From Caulobacter sp. (lineage in GTDB: Bacteria; Pseudomonadota; Alphaproteobacteria; Caulobacterales; Caulobacteraceae): DNA of 64,000 bases. The stretch is taken from NCBI GenBank assembly GCA_030678995.1, contig JAUXTQ010000060.1, positions 62,001-126,000 of the forward strand. Direction: 5' to 3'. How positions within the stretch are numbered: the first letter of the stretch is position 1; the number at the start of each line of letters is the position of its first letter. Below, in pieces: positions 29,631 through 63,263 of the stretch. The notes under the pieces are model-generated. The model saw nothing but the letters and a program-made list of their open reading frames with translations, made no database searches and was not told the DNA's origin. A program made the position numbers and the translations under genes.

Positions 29631-29749
29631 CTGTCATCCCGGCCGAAGCGCACAGCGCGAAGAGCCGGGACCCAGATCCGCTCTCATCCAAAGCGCATGA
29701 AGCAGAATCTGGGTCCCGGATCGTCCCTTCGGGCCGTCCGGGATGACAG
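29631..29749. repeat. Inverted-repeat element, family T copy 1
   Basis: Left arm 29631-29677 runs from CTGTCATCCCGG to CCGGGACCCAGAT; right arm 29707-29749 is the reverse complement at both ends with a diverged middle. Each arm holds its own hairpin between CCGG blocks. It lies 18 bp after the uppP stop, between convergent uppP and the SDR gene. It belongs to the family that flanks the GIY-YIG gene at 61.0-61.4 kb. Confidence 0.87.
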
Positions 29750-49165: not shown

Positions 49166-49292
49166 CCGCTCATCCCGGCGAATGCCGGGACCCAGATGGA
49201 ATGGCGTGAGAGGCTGATCTTCGGTCCTGGAGCCAGTCCAGCCCACTTCAATGCCCTATGATCTGGGTCCCGGCATTCGCCGGGATGAGCGG
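49166..49292. repeat. Inverted-repeat element, family T copy 2
   Basis: Arms 49166-49197 and 49261-49292 are perfect 32-bp reverse complements, CCGCTCATCCCGGCGAATG running to CCGGGACCCAGAT, enclosing 63 bp. Each arm folds on itself through CCCGGC-GAAT-GCCGGG. It is the cleanest empty copy of the family and lies between convergent accD and the DUF6624-like gene, 7 bp after the accD stop. Confidence 0.93.
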
Positions 49293-51634: not shown

Positions 51635-51641
51635 GGGCGAG

Positions 51642-51720
51642 GGGACATGTACCGCCTTCGGTACGTGTCCCCGACAGGCGCCGGCGGGTTTCGGGGACAC
51701 GTACCTTCGGTACATGTCCC
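51642..51720. repeat. REPIN-like inverted repeat, family A variant (copy 4)
   Basis: Left unit 51642-51671 is GGGACAT-GTACC-n-GGTAC-GTGTCCC and right unit 51694-51720 is the same in reverse with a shorter loop. The outer GGGACA/TGTCCC is as in copies 1-3, while the stem is GTACC/GGTAC. It lies between the 36-aa gene and the DUF3501 gene. Confidence 0.85.
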
Positions 51721-51740
51721 CTCCGGCGAACATCCCCGCC

Positions 51741-52360: not shown

Positions 52361-52464
52361 CACTGTCATCCCGGCCGAAGCGTAGCGAAGAGCCGGGACC
52401 CAGATTCGGCCTGGATTCAATCTGGGTCCCGGACAGCCGCTGCGCGGCTTCCGGGATGACAGTG
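52361..52464. repeat. Inverted-repeat element, family T copy 3
   Basis: Arms 52361-52406 and 52419-52464 share CACTGTCATCCCGG ends and CCGGGACCCAGATT inner ends; the middle of each arm has a different but self-complementary hairpin. The spacer is only 12 bp. It fills the gap between the Fe-S protein gene and the DUF3501 gene, which are read in the same direction. Confidence 0.88.
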
Positions 52465-56117: not shown

Positions 56118-56161
56118 GGGGACAGGAAATCATGTCCCGAGGGACACGATATCCTGTCCCC
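56118..56161. repeat. Inverted repeat related to family A/C core
   Basis: Two 21-bp arms, GGGGACAGGAAATCATGTCCC on the left and its near reverse complement on the right (19 of 21 matching), are separated by 2 bp. The GGGGACAG and GGGACA ends resemble those of families A and C. Confidence 0.75.
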
Positions 56162-60443: not shown

Positions 60444-60532
60444 GAAATCAGGGGACAGCTTACCCATTTCCCGTCGCGGCATGGTCAGGCTCCACGGCGG
60501 CCAGGGAAATGGGTAAGCTGTCCCCTGATTTC
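60444..60532. repeat. Inverted-repeat element, family C
   Basis: Arms 60444-60472 and 60504-60532 are perfect 29-bp reverse complements with GGTAAGCTGTCCCC at the core, starting at the first base after the nrdB stop. The core is the same as in family B (17458-17549) with substitutions, so B and C are related. Confidence 0.9.
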
Positions 60533-60977: not shown

Positions 60978-61010
60978 GACCTTCCTCGCTGTGCCAAAAG
61001 GCCCCCAAAC

Positions 61011-61372
61011 CCGCTCATCCCCGCGAAGGCGGGGACCCAGGTTTTTTCACCAAAGGTCCTCAAACAAATCCCGCCAGCCGGGATTGGATCGCTCGATCAG
61101 CCTGATCTTCCAAAGCCGGTTCCATTTTTTCATCTGACGCTCGCGGCGAAAAGCGCCGCCTCGCGTCTCGAAAGCCTCGAACCAGACGAGGATGTGGACG
61201 CCGTATTGCTTCGTGAACCCGGCCCGGATGCCCTCCCGATGTTCCCAGGTTCTTTTGGTAATGTCGTCGGTGGAGCCGATGTAGAGCGTTCCGTTACGCT
61301 GGCTGGCCAGAATGTAGACGTAGAAAGCCATCGCAAAAAAGCCTGGGTCCCCGCCTTCGCGGGGATGAGCGG
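61011..61372. mobile_element. Family T element carrying GIY-YIG gene
   Basis: Arms 61011-61041 and 61342-61372 are perfect 31-bp reverse complements. Each is an inner hairpin of the CCCCGC-GAAG-GCGGGG type between TCAT and ACCCAG. The interior is almost exactly the GIY-YIG gene: 5 bp separate the left arm from its stop codon and 10 bp separate the right arm from its ATG. The arms match the empty family T elements at 29.6, 49.2, 52.4 and 63.2 kb. This is the layout of an autonomous element with non-autonomous relatives. No target-site duplication could be judged. Confidence 0.7.
61047..61331 (-). CDS. GIY-YIG nuclease family protein
   Basis: The 94-residue protein, ATG at 61331, is a stand-alone GIY-YIG domain: FYVYILASQRNGTLYIG, then STDDITKRTWEHREG with the catalytic Arg (R27) and His (H31), and RRERQMKKWNR containing the metal-binding Glu. 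The first motif is VYIL in place of GIY, as in YhbQ/UPF0213 proteins; YIG is intact (17-19). Such domains cut DNA with one metal ion. The gene sits exactly inside a pair of perfect inverted repeats. A longer frame to 61451 merely translates the repeat arm. Confidence 0.9.
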   Translation of the reverse strand: MAFYVYILASQRNGTLYIGSTDDITKRTWEHREGIRAGFTKQYGVHILVWFEAFETRGGAFRRERQMKKWNRLWKIRLIERSNPGWRDLFEDLW

Positions 61373-61412
61373 ATTTGACGCAATTTATACGAGTACTTCT
61401 GCATGACACAAG

Positions 61413-61468: not shown

Positions 61469-63263
<1,795 letters not shown>

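Follow-up and report, generated by a model that had tools for sequence, protein, structure and literature searches.

The described repeats that lie closest to the feature considered here are the CGTC-tagged REPs, which are typical of Alphaproteobacteria: a tag CGTC, TGTC or CCTC at one end, a stem of 8-9 bp starting with AT, a tail CCA, and an arrangement mostly as inverted dimers (Di Nocera et al. 2013, PMC3733652). In that paper, C. crescentus is CGTC-positive, the Neisseria repeat dRS3 is assigned to CGTC-1, and palindromes of the CGTC type are placed in five phyla, with Neisseria and Rickettsia among the Proteobacteria. They apparently had no dedicated transposase in 2013, and the term GIY-YIG appears nowhere in the paper (PMC3733652). 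No link between GIY-YIG enzymes and REPs was found in a literature search by title and abstract start, a search that reaches few subscription papers. The nearest described gene-plus-palindrome system is RAYT/REPIN, in which a gene is flanked by palindromes that also occur genome-wide as inverted pairs (PMC3116915, PMC2817692).

In the feature described here, part of a 64,000-nucleotide stretch of Caulobacter sp. DNA (the window), a small GIY-YIG nuclease gene is enclosed by two palindromes. GIY-YIG single-strand nucleases of Neisseria and relatives, the Ssn nucleases, are said to have cognate multicopy genomic repeats, to cleave single-stranded DNA only, at the cognate repeat, and to affect transformation. 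They are, like the window protein, single-domain GIY-YIG proteins, and probably belong to the same family as the genes described here. In Neisseria gonorrhoeae, a relative sharing 54.8% identity with the window protein is encoded among CGTCATTCCCGCG... repeats, which by their sequence look like the CGTC-1/dRS3 type named in PMC3733652. The arms at that Neisseria locus and at three other loci (L031, L049, L051) carry CGTC, as CGTC-tagged REPs do. Given this relative and the Ssn reports, the association is not categorically new, and the remark in the first-pass annotation that no GIY-YIG/palindrome system was established probably needs correction. The Ssn work is reported to deal with cleavage and transformation, whereas the features of the present family are its unit structure, its dispersal, a deletion series and a matching of two palindrome classes to two nuclease subfamilies.

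The window unit and its relatives in the same genome

The coding sequence (61047..61331, minus strand, from the ORF list; 94 aa, MAFYVYILASQRNGTLYIG...) starts with ATG at 61331, and its stop codon ends at 61047. Its product matches the Pfam GIY-YIG family PF01541 with 58.1 bits (E 1.1e-15; cut-off 22.6). The catalytic residues of the GIY-YIG domain are Tyr, Tyr, Arg, Glu and Asn; in an alignment of 12 sequences, Y17, G19, R27, E64 and N83 are invariant and Y6 is conserved in at least 90%. Judged from its sequence, the protein is a member of the GIY-YIG nuclease superfamily.

The left palindromic arm (61011..61041, plus strand) consists of CCG, CTCAT, the stem CCCCGCGAAGGCGGGG and ACCCAGG; the right arm (61342..61372, minus strand), directly upstream of the start codon, is its perfect 31-nt reverse complement. 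An inverted-repeat search bears out this arrangement as the first-pass annotation had it, including an interior filled by the coding sequence with gaps of only 5 and 10 bp, and extends the whole unit to 61006..61377, with 42-nt ends (61006-61047 and 61336-61377) that are 95% complementary around the perfect inner 31 nt. The arm is predicted to fold as a DNA hairpin (-9.2 kcal/mol) with a 7-bp stem and a tail CCCA. It differs from a CGTC-tagged REP in having GCTC before AT in place of the tag, which it thus lacks, and AC rather than AT closing the stem; by its letters it is a variant of that repeat type. As in RAYT/REPIN, the gene is flanked by palindromes that form inverted pairs genome-wide, such flanking is also a tendency of the gene family, and the gene-less pairs look like non-autonomous copies; unlike RAYT/REPIN, where an HUH tyrosine transposase goes with GTAG-tagged palindromes, the unit has a GIY-YIG enzyme and a palindrome without that tag.

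The first-pass annotation had also placed the arm design without the gene at 29.6, 49.2, 52.4 and 63.2 kb, and all four are present as inverted pairs. The first (29633..29747, arms 29633-29675/29709-29747) is of the GTCATCCCGGCC... type and the second (49166..49292, arms 49169-49195/49263-49289) of the CTCATCCCGGCGAATGCCGGGACCCAG type. The nearest relative, G011, aligns at nearly equal length across the place of the third (52361..52464, arms 52365-52403/52422-52460). The fourth (63157..63259, arms 63157-63183/63234-63259), between groEL and groES, is a looser pair identified by eye, outside the search pattern, and was not found at the corresponding place in G011. The arm pattern has eight matches in the window and 0-1 in each of 20 block shuffles; in the 3.62-Mb genome as a whole it has 47 copies when up to 3 mismatches are allowed, of which 38 belong to inverted pairs, and a reversed-pattern control had none. 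Since the window holds seven exact inverted repeats of at least 20 nt within 1.2 kb, inverted repeats as such are not rare in it, and the notable part is the gene inside one.

Gene-less pairs, 101-134 bp long, often have palindrome-adjacent inner sequence in common. Those built on the window's own palindrome (L126-L130) have its inner T-run, and the outer CAAANCC of the window unit is common to them too. Lengths can be nearly fixed: in G007 and G002, 18 of 20 dispersed pairs measure 118-120 bp.

Eight GIY-YIG matches were found in the genome, one of them within a 732-aa frame, which we take to be UvrC. Five of the remaining seven genes have palindromes on both sides, of differing types, and no palindrome boxes were found around the frames L006 (C53:40505) and L007 (C64:14873). 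These two frames, of 83 and 94 aa, have a tRNA-Val and a tRNA-Met gene, respectively, about 140-160 bp away.

Two of the boxed genes, L002 and L005, belong to the same unit of about 580 bp in two copies, which are similar as far as the outer palindrome at either end; sequence beyond these palindromes does not align. A third, shorter copy is present in G011 (L018). L087 (302 bp) keeps both ends and only part of the gene, and in G011 two further pieces, L088 and L089, keep palindromes and a partial gene; as each lies at the end of a contig and they have 115 nt in common, they are probably one deleted copy split over two contigs. With the gene-less copies, these form a series from full unit through deleted unit to gene-less pair. 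The L002/L005 unit thus has terminal inverted repeats, dispersed copies and internal deletion derivatives, and the only derivatives found of the window unit are gene-less pairs with the same ends. The first-pass description of the window feature as an autonomous copy of a palindromic element holds in so far as the gene belongs to a unit bounded by palindromes, the same arms occur in copies without the gene, and the association is family-wide.

Boxed genes and palindrome classes across bacteria

A GIY-YIG match is present in 34 of 41 genomes of the genus and order. Counting as boxed any gene with an inverted repeat scoring at least 18 within 300 bp on each side, 39 of 86 loci from these genomes are boxed, compared with none of 769 control intervals placed elsewhere in the same loci; the 86 include gene fragments and have no row for L004, L006, L007 and L099. 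With subfamily B and fragments left out, the count is 35 of 73. In a set of 109 further loci (from a named genome collection, the best 80 of its 586 relatives, and 30 phylum-wide ones listed from a longer list), 60 are boxed, spread over several phyla, and where at least 200 bp was available on both sides, 58 of 105 are boxed, compared with 6 of 1551 control intervals. Some of the boxed loci belong to Delta-, Beta- and Gammaproteobacteria or to candidate phyla (L164, L167, L193, L177, L188). Other gene families behave differently: no ParE toxin gene is boxed among 29 (30 loci were listed, one being skipped as short), and none of 18 genes from the membrane-protein family neighboring the window gene. 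Y1 transposase genes served as a positive control: at the same score, with wider windows, 7 of the 12 loci that could be tested are boxed by repeats of their own.

The excess over other genes that the first-pass annotation put forward as a check is therefore seen, and the possibility it raised against itself, that the family is usually not flanked, is contradicted by the 58 of 105, though not by a wide margin: the other 47 further loci have no qualifying box. In these counts and in the class counts below, loci of related species are not independent. At L019-L021, a palindrome pair lies on one side of the gene only. L061 and L085 have inverted repeats of about 140 nt, in which whole palindrome pairs seem to be mirrored on either side of the gene.

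Genomes, too, tend to have gene and palindrome together. A gene match is present in 23 of the 24 palindrome-positive genomes among the 41 and in 11 of the 17 palindrome-negative ones (Fisher p 0.014, with a narrow palindrome pattern, which also bears on the 11 genomes with gene and without pattern). The palindrome-positive exception, G024, has 23 copies and no GIY-YIG gene match in an assembly that is 83% complete.

The type of palindrome follows the type of nuclease. Subfamily A, which includes the window gene, has class I palindromes at 119 of 178 loci among those listed, class II at two and neither at 57; subfamily B (L004-like) has class I at none of 22 loci, class II at 16 and neither at six, "neither" being by pattern. 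The contrast (119:2 vs. 0:16) gives a Fisher p of 5e-19, uncorrected for relatedness of loci, with class patterns that were defined after examples had been seen and one identical left-flank pair between the two sets. L006, L007, L087-L090, L095, L099, L314-L329 and L363-L368 are left out of these counts; L095 and L099 have neither class. Within the genus, where 24 of 49 loci could be used, protein identity rises with the likeness of the palindromes (Mantel r 0.72, p 2e-4), and r is 0.60 once pairs at least 80% identical are removed.

Filled and gene-free sites

How sharply the unit is bounded can be seen where copies lie in unrelated surroundings. L031 and L049 occupy the same site in two species. 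Their alignment with L051, from another site in a third species, runs through the gene for 463 bp and ends within 1-2 nt of the outer repeat ends of L031 and L049.

Comparisons of the same site between relatives give a more varied picture. At site A, the unit is present in G010 and G022; G020 has a gene-less pair of another palindrome type, G005 has nothing comparable, and G004 matches on one side only. At site B, the unit is present in G004 and a collapsed single hairpin in G010, and by eye neither was seen in G005, G020 or G022; only the left flank could be aligned in G005, G010 and G020. At site C, pair and gene are present in G004, G005 and G010 and the pair alone in G022, whose two flanks match those of G010 at 97% and 92% identity; the stem of the gene-less pair, CCCCGCGAAAGCGGGG, is identical to that of the gene-bearing one, and the ends and tails differ. 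At sites D and E, two neighboring intergenic places, G008 and G001 have a 98% identical protein (DNA 93% identical). The first of these places lacks a class I palindrome in G001, where a different hairpin-like sequence is present, and the second holds a single class I-like hairpin in G008. In Azospirillum lipoferum, a unit lies between sufB and sufC, and it is absent from the suf operon of four relatives among 11 records listed: the closest three of those examined, at about 94% identity, and one at 87%. The window unit at 61 kb was not found in G011, whose intergenic DNA is too diverged to give a junction.

Sites B and D come close to a full unit facing close relatives that have neither pair nor gene, with ends that are not exact. 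The precise insertion with target duplication that the first-pass annotation had proposed to look for at loci with and without the element is borne out as to presence and absence only: none of the filled and empty pairs compared gave a base-exact junction, tens of bases being changed around the unit, and no target duplication was found at the directly adjacent positions of 24 elements. In 20 further elements, searched at offsets 0-7, the only matches were the palindrome's own ends, one of 4 nt (3 nt at the next offset) and one of 2 nt. With no target-site duplication found in these 24 and 20 elements, the family differs on this point from an insertion sequence or MITE. Among the collapsed forms, L153 and L058 are each a single hairpin that retains the outer tip of either palindrome; what lay between the stems seems to have dropped out.

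The surroundings do have a composition of their own. In the 9 nt beginning 4 nt outside GCTC, for 24 elements (23 from the window's own genome, one from G011), G makes up 6 of 216 bases on the left and C 14 of 216 on the right; for 20 elements of G007 and G002, at positions 5-14, the same bases number 13 (left) and 14 (right) in 200. This bias is marked and the complementarity of paired flanks modest (permutation p 0.013), and no fixed target motif was found in the flanks of the 24 and 20 elements. The flanks appear AT-rich and then run into a C-run or G-run, giving a dyad-like setting.

Possible roles for the nuclease

The boxed unit and its generality are matters of observation, and firm ones. 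Because the genes are often boxed, and come and go together with the repeats, the enzyme is probably a partner that spreads or tends them. We consider it quite likely that the nuclease acts on its own palindromes; whether it also drives their spread is a question on which the chances look slightly worse than even. The best reading of the window feature, held with some preference over the others, is that it is a copy of a small unit, either mobile or maintained, and that the nuclease would recognize the hairpins flanking its own gene, so that a GIY-YIG nuclease would be the partner enzyme for CGTC-type REPs, possibly cutting and mobilizing them. It would act on the flanking palindrome when this is folded as a hairpin, probably in single-stranded DNA while replication, repair or DNA uptake is under way, and would nick it; repair or copying at the cut could then spread or preserve the palindromes, with the gene-less pairs as putative non-autonomous copies. 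Such a scheme would follow the logic of RAYT/REPIN, with a GIY-YIG enzyme replacing the HUH transposase.

A broader version, offered tentatively, is that small GIY-YIG nucleases are dedicated mobilizers of RAYT-less REP classes, each lineage cutting its own hairpin and the two subfamilies driving two palindrome superfamilies (TCATYCC...GGRAYCCA and TCATSSTGAG...CGAASSA). If so, they would represent a mode of transposition or copying outside the HUH, DDE, serine and tyrosine recombinases, and would answer the question of the missing CGTC-REP enzyme as it stood in 2013 (PMC3733652). RAYT/REPIN would then have a counterpart built on GIY-YIG, and the family would be a rich source of nucleases whose hairpin specificities are predicted. 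A gene family that often boxes itself, with matching of types, makes the enzyme question directly testable with one purified protein and its own arm.

Another possibility, unlikely on balance yet the strongest of the alternatives, is a genome guard resembling Ssn: the nuclease would cut single-stranded DNA at palindromes, limiting or shaping uptake and recombination, the palindromes being tags that spread otherwise and the gene lying among them because they locate or protect it. The N. gonorrhoeae relative among its CGTC-1/dRS3-like repeats fits this, as do the reported cognate repeats and transformation effect of the Ssn nucleases; left unexplained are units that end at palindromes at unrelated loci, internally deleted copies, and the nearly fixed length of the dispersed pairs in G007 and G002.

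Somewhat less probable again is that the gene is a homing-type passenger, inserting into older palindrome pairs that serve as its recognition sites and have some other way of moving. It was in homing endonucleases that GIY-YIG domains were first recognized (PMC1564403), and at sites A and C relatives have a gene-less pair where others have pair and gene; the identical stem CCCCGCGAAAGCGGGG at site C earns this explanation slightly more weight. The gene-less pair at site A is of another type, however, the ends and tails at site C differ, and dispersed copies have the palindromes as well as the gene in common, which argues against a passenger.

Ordinary transcription terminators or chance repeats on both sides can be dismissed, although the palindromes are hairpin sequences and most REPs are found downstream of genes (PMC3733652), in view of the boxing controls (0/769, 6/1551, ParE 0/29, membrane family 0/18), the match of palindrome class to nuclease subfamily, and 47 copies against none for the reversed pattern.

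Equally improbable is a RAYT/Y1 (HUH) transposase as the agent that spreads the palindromes, with the GIY-YIG gene there only incidentally. RAYTs are thought to spread GTAG-tagged REPs (PMC3733652), and the window's own genome does have one Y1 match. Such matches are found in only 10 of the 41 genus and order genomes, however, and the own-genome gene (L335) is boxed by a different repeat, GGGAAATGAGTAAGCTGTCCCCTGATTTCC; a RAYT is therefore an unlikely partner, as the first-pass annotation had supposed in naming the GIY-YIG enzyme instead. Among the 13 genomes with at least 15 palindrome copies, eight lack a Y1 match and five have one, whereas 12 have a GIY-YIG match. None of 13 Y1 loci has a convincing class I palindrome near the Y1 gene: L331 has one spurious-looking match and L342 one, elsewhere in the locus. 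On this distribution, on the palindromes of the Y1 loci and on the different own-genome repeat, a RAYT was rejected as driver. L335 itself recalls TIRYT, a Y1 transposase with long terminal repeats (PMC3733652); the window unit is like both in that a gene is boxed by an inverted repeat, and unlike L335 in enzyme and repeat.

The window holds other repeats as well. An inverted repeat at 60444-60532 (AAATCAGGGGACAGCTTACCCATTTCCC...), close beside the nuclease unit, is closely similar to the L335 repeat and is apparently a gene-less copy of that different element family, and a pair at 56118-56161 (GGGGACAG ... CTGTCCCC) has the same look. A further inverted repeat, at 51639-51723, is matched at many places in G011 and so represents another repeat family.
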